Of a stretch of DNA of 64,000 bases, positions 28,221 through 39,490 are shown in pieces. Each line of letters opens with the position of its first letter. Within the stretch, counting starts at the first letter, position 1. The position numbers and the translations under genes are program-made. The notes beneath the pieces were generated by a model. It searched no databases. It was not told the origin of the DNA and saw nothing but the letters and a program-made list of their open reading frames with translations. The stretch comes from an uncultured Subdoligranulum sp. (lineage in GTDB: Bacteria; Bacillota; Clostridia; Oscillospirales; Ruminococcaceae), in the NCBI GenBank assembly GCA_904390925.1, contig CAJFMB010000003.1:1-64000 (forward strand), written 5' to 3'.

Positions 28221-28580
28221 TTACAGATCCAGTTTGTCCCGCTCGGACTTTTCCTCATTCAGGGCAATGCGCTGGGTCAGGATGCGGACTTTCGAGTCCA
28301 GCTGGCTGATCTTGATCGCCATGAAAAACTGCTTGACGATGAGGAAAAAGATGATGACGATGTAGACAAAATTGATGGGGCTGACAAAGCCCAGCAGCCG
28401 GGAAGCCCAGAAGGCAATGTCCGGGAAGATGGCCAGGATCAGCAGCACAAAGGCCACGGCAAGCCAGTAGATGGTATCCTCGATCTGCACCTTGGCCTGG
28501 CGGATGCGCCGGAGCACAAAAAATGCGGTCAGGATGCTGCCCAGAATCAGGCAGACACGGATAATTGGCTGGTCCAGCAT
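28221..28580 (-). CDS. DUF2304 membrane protein
   Basis: MLDQPIIRVCLILGSILTAFFVLRRIRQAKVQIEDTIYWLAVAFVLLILAIFPDIAFWASRLLGFVSPINFVYIVIIFFLIVKQFF. Confidence 0.85.
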   Translation of the reverse strand: MLDQPIIRVCLILGSILTAFFVLRRIRQAKVQIEDTIYWLAVAFVLLILAIFPDIAFWASRLLGFVSPINFVYIVIIFFLIVKQFFMAIKISQLDSKVRILTQRIALNEEKSERDKLDL

Positions 28581-28583
28581 GGA

Positions 28584-29303
28584 TCACATCCTCCTTTCCG
28601 GGTAAGGGTTCTCGGTGTCGCGCTTGCGGAACCACTGAATCAGCAAAATCGAGATGGACATCTTGACCATATACTGTACGCTGTTCCACAGGTTCAGATA
28701 ACTGTGACCGGCGGTGCGCTCGGCCATGGAAACCTGAACCTCCTTGACCTTGGCGCCGTTTTTGATCAGGTAGCTGATGGTATCCGGCTCGGGGCCGTAA
28801 TTCAGGTTCTGGGCAAACTCCTCCACCATGGCACGGTTGAACATCCGCATGCCGCTGGTGGGGTCGCAGATGGCCCGGCCGGTGGTCAGGCGGATGGACC
28901 AGCTGATGATATAGCTGCCCAGCATCCGCAGGGTCTTGGGCTTCTTCACCGTCAGAAACCGGCTGCCGATGACAATGTCGGCACCGCTTTCCAGCGCCTC
29001 CAGCATGGGGGCGATGTACTCGGGCAGGTGCTGGCCGTCGGCGTCCAGCTGCATGGCGCAGTCATAGCCGTTCTCGGCGGCGTAACGCAGCCCGGTCTGG
29101 AAAGCACCGGCCAGGCCCAGATTGATGGGCAGGTCGATCAGGTGAAATCCGCGGGCACGGCAGATGGCGGCGGTCTTGTCCCGGCTGCCGTCGTTGACTA
29201 CCACATAGTCATATTGCGGGTATTTGGAGGTCAGTTCACCCACCACGCGGGCGATATTGCTCTCCTCGTTGTGGGCCGGAATGACGATCAACAGTTTTGA
29301 CAT
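28584..29303 (-). CDS. Family 2 glycosyltransferase (dolichyl-/polyprenyl-phosphate glycosyltransferase type)
   Basis: MSKLLIVIPAHNEESNIARVVGELTSKYPQYDYVVVNDGSRDKTAAICRARGFHLIDLPINLGLAGAFQTGLRYAAENGYDCAMQLDADGQH. Confidence 0.92.
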   Translation of the reverse strand: MSKLLIVIPAHNEESNIARVVGELTSKYPQYDYVVVNDGSRDKTAAICRARGFHLIDLPINLGLAGAFQTGLRYAAENGYDCAMQLDADGQHLPEYIAPMLEALESGADIVIGSRFLTVKKPKTLRMLGSYIISWSIRLTTGRAICDPTSGMRMFNRAMVEEFAQNLNYGPEPDTISYLIKNGAKVKEVQVSMAERTAGHSYLNLWNSVQYMVKMSISILLIQWFRKRDTENPYPERRM

Positions 29304-29362
29304 CTTGACTCCTTCGGGTGTGGGGCAGGTTTTCCGGGCATCCGCCCGGCGGCCGCCACACA

Positions 29363-30490
29363 TCAAGTGTTCTGTATCAGTTTAGCAAACACCGCGTCCC
29401 ATGTAAAGTGGGCCAGTGCATTTTGACGGGCAGCATCCGCCCGGCGCGCCGCCCCGGCAGGGTCATCCAACAGCCTTTGCAGCGCGGTGCGCAGTGTGTC
29501 GGACTGTGTATCCGACAAAAACAGGGCGCTGTCCCCGGGCAGCAGTTCCTCGGTGCCGGCGGTGGGGGTGCACAGGATGGGGCAGCCGCAGCCCGCTGCC
29601 TCCAGCAGCGTGGTGGGCAGGCCCTCGGCGTACCGGGTGGGCAGGCAGTAGCAGTCGGCATCCGCCAAAAGCCGCACCGCGTCCCCGTGGGCGACGGCGC
29701 CGGGAAAATGCACGTTCCCGGGGGCCTTTGCCCGCAGCGCTTCCAGCAGCGGGCCGTCGCCGGCGGCCACCAGCACCACCCCCGGCAGGGAACGGACTGC
29801 CTCCACCAGTTCCCGGATGCCCTTTTCCGGGATCATACGGCCCAGAAAAACCACCAGTTTTTCGCCGCCCGGGCAAAGATGCTCCCTCGTCAGGGCAGGG
29901 GACCGGGGACCGGCCTGTTCGGCGGCCAGGGCGGCCGGGTCAATGGCGTTGGGCATGGTGCCTGCCGCCTGGATGCCAAAGGTTTTCAGCCACCGGCAGC
30001 TGGCCAGCGACACCCCGTAAAAGGGCGCGCCGGTGCGACGGATCAGGGCGCAGGCCGCCTGCTCATAGATCCGTCCGGCCAGGCCGGTCAGGCCCCCGCC
30101 CATGGGCATGTAACCGGTGGAGTGGTCGATCACCACGGTGGGAATCCGCCTCCGCCAGGCCGCCCGCGCCGCCCAGATGCTCTCGGTGTACATGCGGGTC
30201 TGGACCACGCACAGGTCGATGGGGCGGGAAAAGATGTGCCGGGTCAGGTCCGCCAGGCGGCTGCCGGGACGCAATACCGGAAACCGCCCGCCCATCACCG
30301 GCCAGACCGGCAGACGAACGATTTCAATGCCGTCGGGGTCGGTTTCCTGCTCCGGCAGGCCGGGCAGGGCGCTGGTCACCACAAGGGCGCGGCAGCCATG
30401 CTGTACTGCCTTGCGGGCCAGGTTCCAGGTATACCGCTCCACCCCGCCCGGCGTGGGCAGGTACTGGGCGGAAAAAAAGCAGATGGTCAA
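29363..30490 (-). CDS. GT4-type glycosyltransferase
   Basis: MTICFFSAQYLPTPGGVERYTWNLARKAVQHG...VVFLGRMIPEKGIRELVEAV...YCLPTRYAEGLPTTLLEAAGCGCPILCTP. Confidence 0.92.
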   Translation of the reverse strand: MTICFFSAQYLPTPGGVERYTWNLARKAVQHGCRALVVTSALPGLPEQETDPDGIEIVRLPVWPVMGGRFPVLRPGSRLADLTRHIFSRPIDLCVVQTRMYTESIWAARAAWRRRIPTVVIDHSTGYMPMGGGLTGLAGRIYEQAACALIRRTGAPFYGVSLASCRWLKTFGIQAAGTMPNAIDPAALAAEQAGPRSPALTREHLCPGGEKLVVFLGRMIPEKGIRELVEAVRSLPGVVLVAAGDGPLLEALRAKAPGNVHFPGAVAHGDAVRLLADADCYCLPTRYAEGLPTTLLEAAGCGCPILCTPTAGTEELLPGDSALFLSDTQSDTLRTALQRLLDDPAGAARRADAARQNALAHFTWDAVFAKLIQNT

Positions 30491-30527: not shown

Positions 30528-33125
30528 TTACAGTGCCAGGACAGCCAGCATGACGTTCAAAAGGACACCGGCATTCACCACGCACAGCGCGCAGATCAGG
30601 CCCGCCCCGGTGCGTTGGCCATCGGCGGCCTGCAGTCTGCGGGGCGTCAGCGCCGCCAGCAAAACCGGCAGCACCGGCAGGAAATAGCGGCCCTGCAGCC
30701 CGTACAGCGTGTCGTAGCTGATGGGGGTCCAGGTCAGGCAGCCGGCCACCGACAAACCGCAGCACAAAAGCCCTGTCACCAGCATGGCAAGGCGGGCAGC
30801 ACGGCCGGGCAGCAGTTCGACGGCAGCCGGAATTGCCGCCCAGGCAAGCAGCAGGTAGAGCGCCACCACCCAGAACCAGGCCAGATCCATGGTGTAGTAG
30901 CCCAGACTGCCGCCCACCAGGGTGCGCAGATAATGGTCGCCGTTTTGAATCACAGAGTTGATCAGCAGACGGATCGTCTGCGGCAGATGGGTCAGCAGGT
31001 ATCCGGGGGTGTAGCAGATGGCGTCGTCGCCGGTGGCCACACTCTGGCTTTCGCGGATGGCTGCAGCCTGCTGTACATCCTCGGCCAGCTGCTGCCGGTC
31101 CAGCGGGTAATGCTCAGAATCCTCGATGCCGATGGTCACCCCCAGCGGGTCAAAGATCCGATGCAGGAAGGTGCCGCCGTACAGCTCCTTGAACACCATC
31201 TGCAGCCCTTTTTCGGGGATACTCTGCGCGTAGCCGGCACAATTTTCCTCCGGCGGGTCGAGGTTGTACAGGCACAGAATCATGGCCCGTACCGTATCGT
31301 AATTGCTCAGCCGGGGGGATTCCATTGCCTCCGGGCTGAAGAAAAAGCTCTGGGCCAGCACCACAGCGGTGGTGTCGCCGGAACGCAGCGCATCCGACCA
31401 GAATTCCGTCTCGGCGTCGGAGGGCTCGGTGCCCTCCGCATACCAGAACAGGCGCCGCACATAGTTTTCTACGGTGTTTTCCGAAAGATCTTTCCGGTAG
31501 ACCAGGGCGGATTCTGCTGACTCGGAGGAGGCTTCCTCCGCATCCGGGGCTCCGTGGACGGAACGTTGGCTGCCGGTGGAGTCCGCCGAGAGGGTCACGG
31601 CCGTGTCGGTTGCCGGAACGGTGGTATCGCTGCCCACCGCAAAACGAAGCATCGACCCGTTGAGCAGCAGCGTCAGCGCCACACAGGCAGCCAGGAACCC
31701 GGCCTTCCAGGCGGCGGGTTTCGGTAGGGGAAGGCGTTTGCCGGGAATCCACAGTACCAGGGCTGCCAGTGGCAGATATACTGCCTTGCCCGGGCAGAGC
31801 AGCAGCCCTGCCGCCGCCATGGCAAGCAGCATCCGCCGGCTGGGCCGTTCCTTGCCGAAGGCTGCCCGCAGCGCCAGCGACGCAAAGGCAAAGCAGAGCC
31901 CCAAAAGCAGCGCATCCCGGGAGAAGGAGGCTGCCAGATGCAGCGTCATGGGCAACAGTGCTGCCGCGGCAAACACCCGCCGGCCAAAAGGAGCGTATTT
32001 GATTGCCGCCATGGCCAGTAGCGCAAAGCAGACCAGGTTGGCCAGCCGTCCCAGCGCCAGCGCCGGGACAAAGCCCAGATGCAGCACAAAGGAGACAAAG
32101 ACCGCAGCGGCGCTGGGCAGATACAAAATCGGGTTCTGGTCGGTCTGGGCCTCCTGGTATTCAGTGTGGCTGTCAAAGCTGTCGGGGGACAGGGTGAACA
32201 GATTGTCGGCGTAGGCCTGCCAGGCCCAGACGGTGGTGCCGTTTTCCTGGTTTTGCAGGGTGGCATTGGTGTCGTGTTCCCGGCGGTAGCTGGAACTGAT
32301 GGGGACAGTGCCCATCTTCCAGTCATCATCCGACAGGACGTTGGCCCAGCGACAGGCCAGTGTAAAGGACTGGTTGATGTGGTATTTCTCGTCGGGGGCA
32401 CCGTAGGGCGGCAGCGCAAAGGAGTAGGTGATGCCCAGCACCAGCACCAGCAGGCAGACCAGCCGGTGCAGTGCCAGCTTGCCCCGCAAGGCGCTGCGCA
32501 CCCCGAAAAAGACCGCTGCCAAAGCCAGTACCGCCACCAGCCAGTAATACCGGGTCAGAAAGCCGCCGATCTGCCGGTAGGTGATCAGCAGCGCCAGGGT
32601 GCCGTTCAGCTCGGTGCCGTCAATGACGGCATTTTGCTGCCACAGCGCGGTGCCGTCGGAATGTCCCATGCTCAGCCGGCCGCTGCCCTCGTAGTGGGGG
32701 GTCAGTGTCACGGTGTAGCTGCGCCCGGCGGTGGCGGGAACTGTCCGGTCCAGGCCCAGTCCGGTGTACTGTCTCGGCAGAATGCTTGCCATGTCGCCGA
32801 TGCTCCGGGCCAGGACCTCGCCGGTGTCGGTGTCGGTGACCACCAGTTCCAGACTGCCCTGGGGCTGCTCCCCCTCGGCGCCAAAGACAAAGGCCATGGC
32901 AATCAGGCTGTCGTCATAGCTAAAGGTCTGGCTGACACTGGTTTCCACCGTGGTGTAGGCGGAATAATCGTCGCAGATACTGCTGGACAGTGCCTTGCTG
33001 CCCTGGCCCCGCACCGCGGTCCACCAGACCAGCGCAAAAACCGCAAAGCACACCGCCGCGGCCGCCAGTGCCACGAAGGTGTGCTTGTGCTGTGCAATTG
33101 TCTGTTTCCAGTTCGGTTTTGTCAT
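30528..33125 (-). CDS. DUF2142-type large polytopic membrane protein
   Basis: MTKPNWKQTIAQHKHTFVALAAAAVCFAVFALVWW...ITYSFALPPYGAPDEKYHINQSFTLACRWAN: large membrane protein with a GAPDE-x-H type motif. Confidence 0.75.
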   Translation of the reverse strand: MTKPNWKQTIAQHKHTFVALAAAAVCFAVFALVWWTAVRGQGSKALSSSICDDYSAYTTVETSVSQTFSYDDSLIAMAFVFGAEGEQPQGSLELVVTDTDTGEVLARSIGDMASILPRQYTGLGLDRTVPATAGRSYTVTLTPHYEGSGRLSMGHSDGTALWQQNAVIDGTELNGTLALLITYRQIGGFLTRYYWLVAVLALAAVFFGVRSALRGKLALHRLVCLLVLVLGITYSFALPPYGAPDEKYHINQSFTLACRWANVLSDDDWKMGTVPISSSYRREHDTNATLQNQENGTTVWAWQAYADNLFTLSPDSFDSHTEYQEAQTDQNPILYLPSAAAVFVSFVLHLGFVPALALGRLANLVCFALLAMAAIKYAPFGRRVFAAAALLPMTLHLAASFSRDALLLGLCFAFASLALRAAFGKERPSRRMLLAMAAAGLLLCPGKAVYLPLAALVLWIPGKRLPLPKPAAWKAGFLAACVALTLLLNGSMLRFAVGSDTTVPATDTAVTLSADSTGSQRSVHGAPDAEEASSESAESALVYRKDLSENTVENYVRRLFWYAEGTEPSDAETEFWSDALRSGDTTAVVLAQSFFFSPEAMESPRLSNYDTVRAMILCLYNLDPPEENCAGYAQSIPEKGLQMVFKELYGGTFLHRIFDPLGVTIGIEDSEHYPLDRQQLAEDVQQAAAIRESQSVATGDDAICYTPGYLLTHLPQTIRLLINSVIQNGDHYLRTLVGGSLGYYTMDLAWFWVVALYLLLAWAAIPAAVELLPGRAARLAMLVTGLLCCGLSVAGCLTWTPISYDTLYGLQGRYFLPVLPVLLAALTPRRLQAADGQRTGAGLICALCVVNAGVLLNVMLAVLAL

Positions 33126-33141
33126 AAAAACCCCCTGTGAA

Positions 33142-33648
33142 TTACACTTCGGCGCCAAAGGCCTTGCGCACTGCCTCCGGCCAGCGGCCGTCCCGGCGCA
33201 GAATTGCCTCCACGGCACCGCGGACCGCGCCCTCGCCGCCTTTCTGGGGCAAGCGGCAGGTGGCCCGGGCGGCCACCTCGGGGGCGGCATCCGCCGGGCA
33301 GGCCACAAAGCCGCAGAGTGCCATGGCGGCCAGATCATTCAAGTCGTCGCCGCAGTAGGCCACCTCGCCGGAGGTCAGCCCGTGCTCCGCCATGAAACTC
33401 CGCAGAAAGTCAGCCTTGCCATGTACGTTCTGGTACAGGTATTCCACCTTCAGCTCCTCGGCCCGGCGGCGCACCGCCTCGCAGGCGCGTCCGGTGCAGA
33501 TCATGATCTGCATGCCTGCGGCGTGGGCCAGCACAATGCCGGCACCATCCTTGATGGCAAATTTCTTCAGTTCGTTGCCGGAGGCGTCATAGTAGACACC
33601 CCCGTCGGTCATGGTACCGTCCACATCCAGAACCAGCAGCCGGATCAT
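33142..33648 (-). CDS. KdsC-like HAD phosphatase (3-deoxy-ulosonate-8-phosphatase family)
   Basis: MIRLLVLDVDGTMTDGGVYYDASGNELKKFAIKDGAGIVLAHAAGMQIMICTGRACEAVRRRAEELKVEYLYQNVHGKADFL...GEVAYCGDDLNDLAAM. Confidence 0.88.
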   Translation of the reverse strand: MIRLLVLDVDGTMTDGGVYYDASGNELKKFAIKDGAGIVLAHAAGMQIMICTGRACEAVRRRAEELKVEYLYQNVHGKADFLRSFMAEHGLTSGEVAYCGDDLNDLAAMALCGFVACPADAAPEVAARATCRLPQKGGEGAVRGAVEAILRRDGRWPEAVRKAFGAEV

Positions 33649-33683
33649 GGCTTCACATCCTTTGTCACAGGTATTTTGCCGCA

Positions 33684-35261
33684 TCAAGCCTGCTGGTAAG
33701 CGCTGGGGGTGACAAAGGTCACGTCCAGCCCGCAGGCGCGGATGGCCTGGGCCATGGCGGCGTGGAAGGCCGGGCCCCGGTCGGTGTGGGTGTGCAGGCT
33801 GGTGTCGGCGTAGGCAGGTTTGCCTTCGGTGTAGCCGTCGGCACCGGCTAGCAGGACGGCTTTTGCCCCGCACAGTGCCAGCAGCCGCAGCAGCATGACC
33901 ACGCTGTTGCTGCCCTGGGCAAAGGCACCGGCCAGGCGGTCATAGCCCACCACCGTGCAGTGTTCCGGCGGCTGTTCCGGGCGCAGATTGCTGGTCAGAA
34001 TGGCAGGGCAGGGGAAGGCGCCCATCTTGTCCAGACGCTTGCTGTTGGTAAAGAAGGCGTAATCCGGCGTCAGGAAGTCCGGCACAAAGTTGGCGGAAAC
34101 CATCAGGTCGGCGCCGTCCTCCTGGCCGCGCAGCGCCGCCACGCGGGCCTGGGTGGCCGGGTCGGCCAGTGTGGCACCGGGGGCCAGCACCAGTACCCGC
34201 CTGCCGGCAAAGGTGGATTTCAGCTGTTCCAGCGCGGCGGCGTCATCCACCCGGCGGCCCTGATACTCGGCATACAGCTGGTCGGCGTAGGCCGGGTCGT
34301 AGGCGGTGGCCTTGGAGCGGTCAAACACCGACAGAATGTGGTTGATGTCCCGGTTGGTCAGGTCGCCCTTGGCCAGATAGTGCTCGGCATAGTCCCGGTG
34401 CAGGTTGAACCGCGCCGACAGGAAATAGGCCGGCGTGTAGCCCCATTGGGTTTCCCCCTTCATGGGGGCGATGTAGTCCTGGATGGCGTCCATCAGTTCG
34501 TCGATGTCGTAATGGTCGCCCAGAACCTCGTTCATGTAGTCAGCCACCAGCTCAATGGGCAGGTTGCCGGGAATCCGGCCCATGCCCATCAGGCTGGCGT
34601 CCACGGTGGTGTCCCGCAGCAGATGCTTGTCAATGAACTCCTGCGCCAGGCAGAAGCTTAGGGCCATGTTCTCGTGCAGATGCAGCCCCACCCGGATGCT
34701 GGGGTCCAGATTGTGGTCCACCAGACTGACAATCCGCTCCAGGTCCCGGCGGCGCATGCTGCCGAAGGTGTCCACGATGGAGAACTGATAGGGCAGAATG
34801 GCGTTGACCTGGTCCAGAATCCACAAAATGTCCCGGTCGCTGTAGCCCATGATGTTGATGGGATTGATGGACAGCTTGTAGCCCCGGGCCTTGACCTCCC
34901 GGGCAAAATCCATGCCCTCCTTGATGTCGTAGTCGTGGGCGGTGATGCGGATCATCTCGATGCCCTTGCCCGAATATTCGCTCAGCTTGGCAATGTCGTA
35001 GTTGGAGCGCATCGCCATACCGGAATACATGGTGTGGCCGGGATTGTCCGGCAGCAGACGGTTGAGCTCCTCGATGGTGTTGCAGACGGTCACGTCGGGG
35101 TCATACTGTTCCACATTGCGCAGAAAACCCACCTCGACAATGTCGGTGCCGGCACGGGTCAGGGTGCGGATGATCTCCCGCGCCGAGGCAAAGCCCCAGC
35201 GCCAGTTGTTCACATAGCCGCCGTCGCGCAGCGTGCAGTCCAGCAGTTTTACGTTGGGCAT
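33684..35261 (-). CDS. HMGL/DmpG-like aldolase domain fused to a C-terminal MptE/DUF115-like domain
   Basis: MPNVKLLDCTLRDGGYVNNWRWGFASAREIIRTLTRAGTDIVEVGFLRN...VGLHLHENMALSF...VDASLMGMGRIPGNLPIELVADYMNE (HMGL TIM barrel), then RRVLVLAPGATLADPATQARVAALRGQEDGADLMVSANFVPDFLTPDYAFFTNSKRL (MptE/DUF115-like Rossmann). Confidence 0.82.
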   Translation of the reverse strand: MPNVKLLDCTLRDGGYVNNWRWGFASAREIIRTLTRAGTDIVEVGFLRNVEQYDPDVTVCNTIEELNRLLPDNPGHTMYSGMAMRSNYDIAKLSEYSGKGIEMIRITAHDYDIKEGMDFAREVKARGYKLSINPINIMGYSDRDILWILDQVNAILPYQFSIVDTFGSMRRRDLERIVSLVDHNLDPSIRVGLHLHENMALSFCLAQEFIDKHLLRDTTVDASLMGMGRIPGNLPIELVADYMNEVLGDHYDIDELMDAIQDYIAPMKGETQWGYTPAYFLSARFNLHRDYAEHYLAKGDLTNRDINHILSVFDRSKATAYDPAYADQLYAEYQGRRVDDAAALEQLKSTFAGRRVLVLAPGATLADPATQARVAALRGQEDGADLMVSANFVPDFLTPDYAFFTNSKRLDKMGAFPCPAILTSNLRPEQPPEHCTVVGYDRLAGAFAQGSNSVVMLLRLLALCGAKAVLLAGADGYTEGKPAYADTSLHTHTDRGPAFHAAMAQAIRACGLDVTFVTPSAYQQA

Positions 35262-35295: not shown

Positions 35296-36048
35296 TCAGG
35301 ACTTGGCGGGCTGACGGCTCTCGCCCCGCTCGGTCAGGATGCGGGCCACCAGTTCCAGGTCCTTGGGAGTATCCACGCTGACGGTCTTGTAGGGGCTGAC
35401 GATGGCATGCACCTTGTGGCCGTTTTCCACAAAGCGCATCATGTCGTTTTCCTCTGCCTTCTCCAGCATGGATTTGGGGGTGTCGTGGTAGAAGGCCAGC
35501 GCCTGCCGGCTGTACAGCTGGATGCCGGTGACCTTCTCATACTCAAAGTCCAGGGTTCCCTTCGGGTAGGGGATGGGGCTTCGGGAGATCATCAGAATCT
35601 CCCGGGCTGCATTGGTGACCACCTTCTGGTTGGAAAAGTCGATCACATCGGCGGGGTGCTCCATGATGTTGGTCAGCACTGCCACATAGTACGGGTCCTC
35701 CGGCAGCGTCTTGGGCAGAATCAGGTCAAAGGAGGCCACGTTGATCAGCGGCTCGTCGCCCATCACCTGCAGGTACAGGTCGGCCTCCAGCTTGGTGCTG
35801 ACCTCCCAGATGCGGCCGGTGGGGGTGTCGTGGTCGGGGCTGGTCATGCAGTAATCCATGCCGTAGGTCTCGCAGGCCCGGGCGATGCGCTCGTCGTCGG
35901 TGGCAATGACCACGCCGTCCAGCGCCTTGCATTTTCTGGCTTCCTGCCAGACCCACCAGATCATCGGACAGCCCAGAATATCCGCCAGCGGCTTGCCCGG
36001 CATGCGGGAACTGTGATAGCGGGCGGGAATGACTGCAATGGTTTTCAT
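35296..36048 (-). CDS. KdsB-like CMP-ulosonic acid cytidylyltransferase
   Basis: MKTIAVIPARYHSSRMPGKPLADILGCPMIWWVWQEARKCKALDGVVIATDDERIARACETYGMDYCMTSPDHDTPTGRIWEV...LYLQVMGDEPLI. Confidence 0.9.
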   Translation of the reverse strand: MKTIAVIPARYHSSRMPGKPLADILGCPMIWWVWQEARKCKALDGVVIATDDERIARACETYGMDYCMTSPDHDTPTGRIWEVSTKLEADLYLQVMGDEPLINVASFDLILPKTLPEDPYYVAVLTNIMEHPADVIDFSNQKVVTNAAREILMISRSPIPYPKGTLDFEYEKVTGIQLYSRQALAFYHDTPKSMLEKAEENDMMRFVENGHKVHAIVSPYKTVSVDTPKDLELVARILTERGESRQPAKS

Positions 36049-36109
36049 ATCCGTTACACCTCGGAAAAACATTTTGGAATTGTGTCTGCTGCCCGGCTGC
36101 GGGCAGAAA

Positions 36110-37096
36110 TTACCGCTGAATCAGGGCCTTGGCCTCCTCCAGCGAAAGGAAGATATTCTCCTCCGCTGCGGTAAAGCCCCGCAGCACCCAGCTTTGCACG
36201 GTGACCGCCCGGCGGAATTTGCCCGGCAGGCAAAAGTTCAGCACCTCGCTGGGCATGGTCCGTTCCAGAACCACCGCCCCGGGGAACAGCGCCTGGTAGT
36301 CGGTGATGTCCCGCGGATGGGTCTTGATATACAGCGGCCCGTCGGCGTACTTTGCCGCCACCGCCCGGAACATCGCATCCTGGGTATCCTGGTCCATCAG
36401 ACCGTCAGCCACAAAGCTGCGGGTCAAAAGCAGGGTGGCGTTTGCCAGCGCGGCGGGGTCCTCCGGCAGCGGCCGGGTGAGAAACACCCCGCGCACCGCT
36501 GCCTTCTCGGCGGGGGTCAGGCTTTCCAGCAGTGCTTTTTTCGAGAAGGTCGCCAGCTTTTCCGGCGGAAACAGGGTGCACCGGGCGGCGTCCTCGCTCT
36601 CCACAAGCCGGCAGCAGGGGCTGTCGCCCCAGTAGAGATACCCGTGTCCTCGCTGCTTGGCGGCAAAATCCGGGGCTGAGCGCTGCTGGTCCAGCAGGTG
36701 CTGGTCCGGGTCCAGGGTGCCGCCCACCGTGTCCTCACAGAGAATATAGGGTGCCCGGCAGTCCTGCAGGTAGCGGCCGGTGACACTCCAGTCGTTGCAG
36801 ATGTAAATGTTGCGGAACGCATCCCTGGCAAGGCTTACACCCAACGCCTTCTCAAAGGCGCGGCGGTTGCGGCAATGGGCAAAGGGCCCGGTCACAACGC
36901 CAGGCCAGCGGGATTCCTGCAGTACGCAGATGGTGGAAAAAATGCCGTCCAGCTTGTGGGAGGCCGCCAGGGCCCCGGCGTTGGGGATCTGCCCGCTCAG
37001 CCAGACAGCCTGCCCGCCGCCCGCCCGCAGCGCCCGTACGATGGCGATCAGCAGGTGATAGGCGGTGTGGCAGATGTAAAGATCCGGTTTAGCCAT
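36110..37096 (-). CDS. GT52/polysialyltransferase-like glycosyltransferase
   Basis: MAKPDLYICHTAYHLLIAIVRALRAGGGQAVWLSGQ...LYIKTHPRDITDYQALFPGAVVLERTMPSEVLNF: N-terminal CHTAYHLLIA and KTHPRD motifs typical of these families. Confidence 0.72.
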   Translation of the reverse strand: MAKPDLYICHTAYHLLIAIVRALRAGGGQAVWLSGQIPNAGALAASHKLDGIFSTICVLQESRWPGVVTGPFAHCRNRRAFEKALGVSLARDAFRNIYICNDWSVTGRYLQDCRAPYILCEDTVGGTLDPDQHLLDQQRSAPDFAAKQRGHGYLYWGDSPCCRLVESEDAARCTLFPPEKLATFSKKALLESLTPAEKAAVRGVFLTRPLPEDPAALANATLLLTRSFVADGLMDQDTQDAMFRAVAAKYADGPLYIKTHPRDITDYQALFPGAVVLERTMPSEVLNFCLPGKFRRAVTVQSWVLRGFTAAEENIFLSLEEAKALIQR

Positions 37097-38398: not shown

Positions 38399-39274
38399 TT
38401 ACACGGTATCCATAAAGGTCTTTTCAATCCGGCTGAAGAGAATCACGCCGATGAACAGCGCCACCGCGGTAAACACCAGGCTGTAGACAAACATGCCGAT
38501 GTCCGCCGAGCCGGTGCCCAGTGTTGCGGTGCGGAAAATCTCCACCGGCGCCGTCATGGGGTTCAGCCGCATCAGGAATGCCAGCCGGGGGCTGTTGCCC
38601 AGGGTGGACAGCGGATAGACCACAGGGGAAATGTACATCCACAGCTGCACGCCGAAGCTGACCGCAATGGCCAGGTCCCGGTACTTGGTGGTCAGGCTGG
38701 AGACAATGATGCCCACGCCCAGGCCCAGCAGCATCACCTGCAATACCACCACCGGCACTGCCCACATCCAGACGGTCAGGTGCATCTGCGCTCCGGTGAG
38801 CCAGAAATACAGCCAGAAGATCACGAACATGGCCGCCTGGATCAAAAAGTTGATCAGACTGGTCAGCACCTGGCTGATGGGGGTGGTCAGGCGGGGAAAA
38901 TACACCTTGCCGAACACCTGGCTGTTGGCCACAAAGGTGTTGGCGGTGTTGTTGATGCAGGTGGAAAAGAAGGTCCACACGGTGTTGCCCGCCATGTAGA
39001 ACAGAAAGCTGGGGGTGCCGTCGGTGGACAGACCGGCGATGCCGCCGAACACCACATTGAACAGCACGGTGGTCAGCAGCGGGTTGAGCAGCACCCAGGC
39101 GGGGCCCAGGATGGTCTGTTTGTACAAAACCGCAAAATTGCGCTTGACGAACATGATGATCAGATCGCGGTAGCGCCACAGCTCCCGCAGGTCGATATCA
39201 AACCAGCCGGTGCGCGGGCGGATGATGGTGGTCCACTCCCCCTGGCTGCCGCTGTTTTTGGAAATGTTTGGCAT
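38399..39274 (-). CDS. Polysaccharide ABC-2 permease (Wzm/TagG-like)
   Basis: MPNISKNSGSQGEWTTIIRPRTGWFDIDLRELWRYRDLIIMFVKRNFAVLYKQTILGPAWVLLNPLLTTVLFNVVFG. Confidence 0.94.
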   Translation of the reverse strand: MPNISKNSGSQGEWTTIIRPRTGWFDIDLRELWRYRDLIIMFVKRNFAVLYKQTILGPAWVLLNPLLTTVLFNVVFGGIAGLSTDGTPSFLFYMAGNTVWTFFSTCINNTANTFVANSQVFGKVYFPRLTTPISQVLTSLINFLIQAAMFVIFWLYFWLTGAQMHLTVWMWAVPVVVLQVMLLGLGVGIIVSSLTTKYRDLAIAVSFGVQLWMYISPVVYPLSTLGNSPRLAFLMRLNPMTAPVEIFRTATLGTGSADIGMFVYSLVFTAVALFIGVILFSRIEKTFMDTV

Positions 39275-39379
39275 ATCGGATTCTCCTGGTCTTGTCAATT
39301 TGGGTCCCGGTCTGCGTCCGGACAACCGGCTTTGCAGCGCCGCTGTTTTACCGGCACGGGAAAAATTCATACACGCCTT

Positions 39380-39408
39380 ATTGTACCATGCACAGCGGAA
39401 AAATACAA
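39380..39408 (-). promoter_or_regulatory. Predicted promoter of the surface-glycan operon (TTGTAT-17-TACAAT)
   Basis: Minus strand TTGTAT TTTTCCGCTGTGCATGG TACAAT. Confidence 0.65.
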
Positions 39409-39440
39409 ACCCGTCCGCGGGCATTGCCGGGCCCGGACAG

Positions 39441-39476
39441 AAAAAAGCCGCCCCGGCCAAACAGGGCCGAAGCGGC
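39441..39476 (-). terminator. Terminator of degV gene
   Basis: Minus strand GCCGCTTCGGCC-CTGTTT-GGCCGGGGCGGC-TTTTTT. Confidence 0.85.
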
Positions 39477-39490
39477 AAAACAGAACAAAG

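Follow-up and report, generated by a model that had tools for sequence, protein, structure and literature searches.

The window, a 64,000-nucleotide stretch of a contig from an uncultured Subdoligranulum sp., carries on its minus strand a gene set that is predicted from its profile matches to be a surface-glycan operon. Within it lies a single open frame of 525 aa (33684..35261, ATG to TGA), which consists of an HMGL barrel of the DmpG/3dxi type and a C-terminal domain (CTD) of 180 aa. In order of transcription, the genes and the two domains of the fusion are as follows.

38399..39478, minus strand: export ABC permease, TagG/Wzm-like (PF01061, 2e-17); the true start is probably internal, the homologues having about 290–304 aa
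37099..38427, minus strand: polysaccharide/teichoic-acid export ABC ATPase, TagH/Wzt-like (PF00005, 3.1e-22; PRK13545, 1.3e-57)
36110..37096, minus strand: GT52/polysialyltransferase-like glycosyltransferase, candidate user of a CMP-ulosonate (PF07922, 1.3e-5, just under the cut-off; PF07388, 0.014)
35296..36072, minus strand: KdsB-like CMP-ulosonate cytidylyltransferase (PF02348, 1.7e-38; PRK05450.1-5, 214.7 bits, cut-off 193)
33684..35261, minus strand: HMGL-type aldolase with a sialyltransferase/MptE-like domain, 525 aa, with the ribosome-binding site AAGGAG ahead of its start codon
34362..35261, minus strand: N-terminal TIM barrel of the fusion, residues 1 to about 300 (PF00682; Foldseek matches to 3dxi and 1nvm; conservation over 76 sequences)
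33687..34226, minus strand: CTD of the fusion, residues 346–525, with a sialyltransferase/MptE-like Rossmann fold (AlphaFold, Foldseek, and hhalign)
33142..33684, minus strand: KdsC/KDN-9-phosphatase-like HAD phosphatase, 180 aa (NF058599, 146.6 bits; TIGR01670, 127.7 bits)
30528..33338, minus strand: DUF2142 membrane protein (PF09913, 1.5e-35), syntenic in relatives; the upstream start of this ORF is probably over-extended
29363..30490, minus strand: GT4 glycosyltransferase (PF00534, 1.3e-24)
28584..29366, minus strand: GT2 glycosyltransferase, polyprenyl-phosphate-sugar synthase-like (PF00535, 1e-27)
28221..28580, minus strand: DUF2304 small membrane protein (PF10066, 1.9e-27)

The original prediction had described the 525-aa protein as an HMGL-type barrel with a separate C-terminal domain, encoded between KdsB-like and KdsC-like genes, and the profile searches and the predicted structure agree with it on all three points. 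The KdsC-like gene scored above the cut-off (106.95 bits) of the KdsC subfamily model TIGR01670. The KdsB-like gene exceeded its PRK05450 subfamily model but scored 123.7 bits against the KdsB equivalog TIGR00466, below the cut-off of 155.2. The stop codon of the fusion overlaps the start of the phosphatase gene in the sequence TGATG, which fixes the phosphatase start at 33684 and makes translational coupling of the two genes likely. Of 35 genomes from the genus (Gemmiger/Subdoligranulum), 28 carried the fusion, full-length or cut by a contig end, with E values below 1e-190; it is thus neither a chance product nor an assembly artefact. The operon order also recurs throughout the genus and in further genera of the family, and the operon is present in Gemmiger formicilis ATCC 27749 (L087).

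The barrel was analyzed by profile and structure searches. A Pfam profile search matched residues 4–257 to the HMGL-like family PF00682 (5.4e-16; 59.2 bits; cut-off, 29), and found no match in the fusion protein to the KdsA/NeuB-type profiles PF00793 and PF03102. The predicted structure of the full-length protein had a pLDDT of 92.6 and a pTM of 0.83. The best solved relative of the barrel was 3dxi, a "putative aldolase" (5.6e-22), and 4-hydroxy-2-oxovalerate aldolases came next; Foldseek likewise gave 3dxi (E value, 4.7e-14) and the aldolase DmpG (1nvm; 1.7e-13). The score against TIGR03217, the model of the DmpG 4-hydroxy-2-oxovalerate aldolase, was 60.8 bits, under the equivalog cut-off of 286. 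The 3dxi protein, BVU_2661 of Phocaeicola (Bacteroides) vulgatus, has in common with the fusion the barrel and the signature LDCTLRDGGY...H-x-H-x-N...GMGR-x-x-GN, but the identity is about 24%, the N-terminal domain alone has been solved, and the protein is a putative aldolase by name. DmpG (1nvm, 8ih7) is a metal-dependent pyruvate aldolase of the HMGL superfamily, and the Arg and Asp of its RDG motif and both HxH ligands are kept in the fusion. In contrast to DmpG, the window protein has Tyr in place of H21, an additional CTD, and a biosynthetic surface-glycan context, and no acetaldehyde dehydrogenase partner occurred among the fusion neighbors examined.

The original prediction depended on the retention of the HMGL catalytic residues, and the metal ligands and the enolate Arg have been kept. 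R12, D13, H194, H196, and N233, which include the metal ligands and the enolate Arg, were invariant in 76 of 76 homologues, as expected of working metal-dependent enolate chemistry. Position 16, which corresponds to H21 of DmpG, was Tyr in 66 of the 76 sequences, including the window protein (Y16), His in eight, and Phe in two. His21 of DmpG is the catalytic acid/base. H288, which was also invariant across the 76 homologues, could take over this role, judging by its conservation.

To our knowledge, every bacterial surface ulosonic acid with a familiar biosynthesis (Kdo, sialic, legionaminic, and pseudaminic acids) is made by a PEP-dependent synthase. The distribution of the fusion was followed in the best 80 loci (1.2 Mb in total, from several phyla) that were obtained by searching a single genome for each species. 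These loci span Lachnospiraceae, Oscillospiraceae, Paenibacillus, Synergistaceae, Spirochaetaceae, Bacteroidales, Akkermansia, and Gastranaerophilales, taxon labels that are tentative since many of the 80 records are metagenome bins. A CMP-sugar cytidylyltransferase of the PF02348 type was encoded within six genes of the fusion in 76 of the 80 loci and directly upstream in 62, and 63 of 65 upstream genes selected by size matched PF02348 in Pfam, both KdsB-like and PseF-like kinds being represented. The commonest downstream gene was an HAD phosphatase, and a recognized one lay within six genes in 55 of the 80 loci. Glycosyltransferases resembling sialyl- or polysialyltransferases were also present in fusion operons. 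Across genera, the order KdsB–fusion–KdsC persisted down to about 35% protein identity, which rules out chance juxtaposition and argues for a functional unit. The fusion family is old and widespread. No NeuB or KdsA was found near the fusion in the best 80 loci; a single DAHP-synthase ORF lay at the edge of one locus (L113).

These features suggest that the fusion is the ulosonic (2-keto-3-deoxy) acid synthase of a CMP-ulosonate pathway, in which it would replace the PEP-dependent KdsA or NeuB, and we regard this reading as fairly probable. The linked cytidylyltransferase and phosphatase, found across phyla, the invariant catalytic residues, and the lack of both KdsA and NeuB in 16 of 31 carriers make the aldolase the best candidate for the synthase, and they favor the role that the original prediction had assigned to it. 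The fusion would occupy the same place in the pathway as KdsA (Kdo-8-P synthase) and NeuB (sialic/legionaminic acid synthase), ahead of KdsC- and KdsB-type enzymes, but it is unrelated to them in sequence, and they use PEP irreversibly, whereas pyruvate is proposed as the substrate of the fusion family. Several points count against a synthase, among them that some carriers have no recognizable phosphatase and the catalytic H21 of DmpG is replaced by Tyr in most family members.

From the fold, the residues, the synteny, and the absence of KdsA and NeuB in many carriers, as given by sequence and structure prediction, we infer a catalytic direction, a substrate, a product, and a role of the CTD. 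The barrel would hold a divalent metal through D13, H194, and H196 and form the enolate of pyruvate with R12. The enolate would attack the aldehyde group of an aldose, free or phosphorylated, to give a 4-hydroxy-2-keto-3-deoxy acid or its phosphate. Another point against the proposal is that the aldol addition of pyruvate has a weaker thermodynamic drive than PEP condensation; later steps must therefore draw the reaction forward. The HAD phosphatase, whose translation is probably coupled to that of the fusion, may do so by stripping the phosphate from the product of the reversible aldol reaction; this phosphate-first order is suggested by the KdsC-type gene. The KdsB-like enzyme would then form the CMP-sugar, the GT52-like transferase would consume it, and the Wzm/Wzt-type ABC transporter would export the glycan, while the CTD may bind a nucleotide or the CMP-sugar for feedback control or hand-over.

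Firmicute carriers had no D-arabinose-5-phosphate isomerase (KdsD); carriers with LPS had one. With both KdsA and KdsD missing from the Firmicute carriers, canonical Kdo was downgraded as the product, and arabinose-5-phosphate, one of the substrates that had been put forward for the aldolase, is disfavored. KDN was not chosen either: the phosphatase scores best against KDN-9-phosphatase but below the cut-off, which is too thin a basis.

The absence of a KdsA/NeuB-type synthase from the window had been noted in the original prediction, and profile searches indeed reported no NeuB or KdsA match on the contig. The synthase-type matches listed for the window genome belonged to a DAHP-synthase-like ORF of 357 aa on a different contig; this ORF scored far below the cut-off of the KdsA model. 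It had also been proposed that a kdsA or neuB gene be sought elsewhere in the carriers, and here the outcome was divided. KdsA is absent from the genus, and of 61 relatives none gave a TIGR01362 score above the cut-off, the control genomes being positive, which agrees with the proposed replacement. NeuB co-occurs with the fusion in most congeners, which is in part the outcome that the original prediction had named as refuting it, though this NeuB is encoded in a separate cluster of legionaminate type, and none was seen in the window genome (85% complete). This NeuB could in principle feed the fusion operon, which is a further point against the synthase reading. The keto acid might accordingly come from another enzyme, either NeuB or a pyruvate aldolase of catabolic type. 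The HMGL protein would then modify or degrade it, for instance regulating the pool as a retro-aldolase. A catabolic function is the norm for DmpG-type enzymes, in keeping with such a role. However, in a Gemmiger genome (G026) NeuB lies about 120 kb from the fusion, beside an Epimerase_2 gene and a CTP transferase of its own. The whole cluster (L044:7033-14589) comprises a DegT-like aminotransferase ORF (identified by eye), NeuB, Epimerase_2, Gfo-like ORFs, and the CTP transferase, and by its gene content looks like a self-contained legionaminate-type pathway.

Further evidence against synthesis elsewhere came from 31 sampled fusion-bearing genomes, in a survey that covered KdsA and NeuB: ten had a true NeuB (at least 199 bits), five had KdsA, and 16 had neither. 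The five KdsA-positive carriers were three Gastranaerophilales-type genomes, one Bacteroidales genome, and one Akkermansia bin, in which LPS explains the enzyme. The 16 carriers with neither synthase include the isolates Niameybacter massiliensis, Mediterraneibacter glycyrrhizinilyticus, Proteocatella sphenisci, and two Paenibacillus, and two of the 16 were rated 99–100% complete. In these 16 carriers, with KdsA and NeuB surveyed, the HMGL protein is by sequence the sole linked candidate for keto-acid formation. Nor would one expect a degradative enzyme to lie, in several phyla, between the genes for activation and dephosphorylation, and we therefore consider it unlikely that the keto acid is made elsewhere.

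Related HMGL proteins were found in other settings, and these bear on the chemistry of the subfamily. In one genome (L071:7882-13391, G049), a stand-alone HMGL protein of 35% identity has a CTP_transf-like/PEP-mutase fusion on one side and a TPP decarboxylase with an Fe-ADH on the other, in a phosphonate-type cluster. In another (L072:5785-7536, G061), an IspD/TarI-type cytidylyltransferase is fused to HMGL in a protein of 583 aa that adjoins a 2-hydroxyacid dehydrogenase-like ORF. These relatives indicate that the subfamily is chemically versatile and that the substrate is not readable from homology. They would also fit a different C–C bond formation by the HMGL protein, such as a Claisen-type or phosphonate-type condensation, whose CMP-activated product would not be a classical ulosonic acid. 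Against this, KdsB/PseF-type (PF02348) and KdsC-type enzymes are the partners in the window operon and in the fusion family, and no PEP mutase was recognized among the operon genes examined, so that we hold such chemistry to be rather improbable.

Additional HMGL arrangements were seen within the genus. A second cluster in one genome (L070:5848-13784, G011) encodes a triple fusion HMGL–CTD–HAD of 802 aa, the HAD-like part being identified by eye, and this direct joining to an HAD-like domain favors the synthase reading. The cluster further contains a stand-alone HMGL protein, a KdsC-like gene, three genes for KdsB-like cytidylyltransferases, and a TPP enzyme that is divided between two ORFs. 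Two fusion-less genomes of the genus (L074:8703-11949 in G028, and L073 in G018) carry other HMGL proteins of 347–355 aa adjoining large ORFs; the HMGL neighbor in L074 is a TPP enzyme, with a GtrA-like gene ahead.

The CTD (residues about 346–525) was predicted with a pLDDT of 94.6. A direct sequence search of the window CTD against Pfam and the PDB gave nothing significant. The original prediction had taken the CTD to be MptE/DUF115-like. This likeness has remote support, hhalign giving a probability of 90% against a profile of MptE-like domains from large Maf-type proteins and Foldseek matching MptE (8sd5; probability, 0.99; TMq, 0.47), but the window CTD gave no match to PF01973 (MptE-like) over the curated cut-off. 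PF01973 matched 10 of 73 relatives weakly (best, 0.0083) and, in another search, one of ten (0.0015). Foldseek also matched ST3Gal-I (2wnb) with a probability of 1.00 but an E value of 5.7e-3 and a TMq of 0.57. Overall, the matches (sialyltransferases, MptE, and SteA) had probabilities of 0.95–1.00, E values of 4e-3 to 5e-2, and TM values of 0.47–0.57, and they include mammalian ST3Gal-I and ST8SiaIII crystallized with CMP or a CMP-sugar. The motifs PG, two Asn, Arg (N/R), TSN, and GxDG(Y/F) were kept across the 76 sequences. In its predicted fold the CTD resembles GT29/GT42 sialyltransferases and the MptE-like domain that Maf flagellin glycosyltransferases carry, but at 180 aa it is shorter than the GT29/GT42 enzymes and is without their conserved catalytic His: position 500, equated by eye with the GT42/GT29 base site, is Asn in 62 of 76 sequences and His in three. 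The GT42 profile PF06002 matched nothing in 300 genomes of the phylum, the controls being equally silent. Among 291 genomes of the class, full-strength CTD matches occurred only in frames of fusion length. Meanwhile, two Blautia-type operons (L115 and L116) encode the aldolase without the CTD, next to the same genes as in the Lachnospiraceae operon L108.

The missing catalytic His and the natural absence of the CTD in L115 and L116 fit an accessory or sensing role better than transfer. From the fold matches, the CTD is probably not the main transferase but an accessory domain to which a nucleotide or CMP-sugar would bind, in the service of feedback or hand-over. Least probable of the alternatives is a bifunctional synthase–transferase whose CTD, as an active Maf/GT42-related enzyme, would transfer the product of the same polypeptide: the CMP-liganded sialyltransferase matches, the remote MptE likeness, and the conserved pocket-like motifs speak for it, but the lost His, the shortness of the domain, its absence from L115 and L116, and the separate GT52/POLYST-like gene in the operon all speak against it, as they do against the transfer function that had been suggested for the domain.

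No description of the fusion family was found in the open-access literature, subscription papers lying outside the coverage. We put at about even the chance that the family represents a third class of biosynthetic ulosonic acid synthase, one that does without PEP, in which an HMGL-type metal pyruvate aldolase carrying a CMP-sugar-sensing domain of sialyltransferase fold would make a CMP-activated ulosonic acid for exported surface glycans, in Gram-positive gut bacteria, where it is widespread, and beyond. Genome annotation predicts ulosonic acids by looking for KdsA or NeuB. If the proposal is true, searches of this kind overlook acidic CMP-activated sugars made by many gut Firmicutes, and biocatalysis gains from the family a reversible and stereochemically useful enzyme for 2-keto-3-deoxy acids.

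Lachnospiraceae operons of one type (L108:2557-16273, L101, L106, and L109) combine the fusion with a POLYST-family protein and two hexapeptide acyltransferase-like genes, and L115 and L116 are similar. All six operons also encode two large proteins of about 690 and 900 aa that have no Pfam match.
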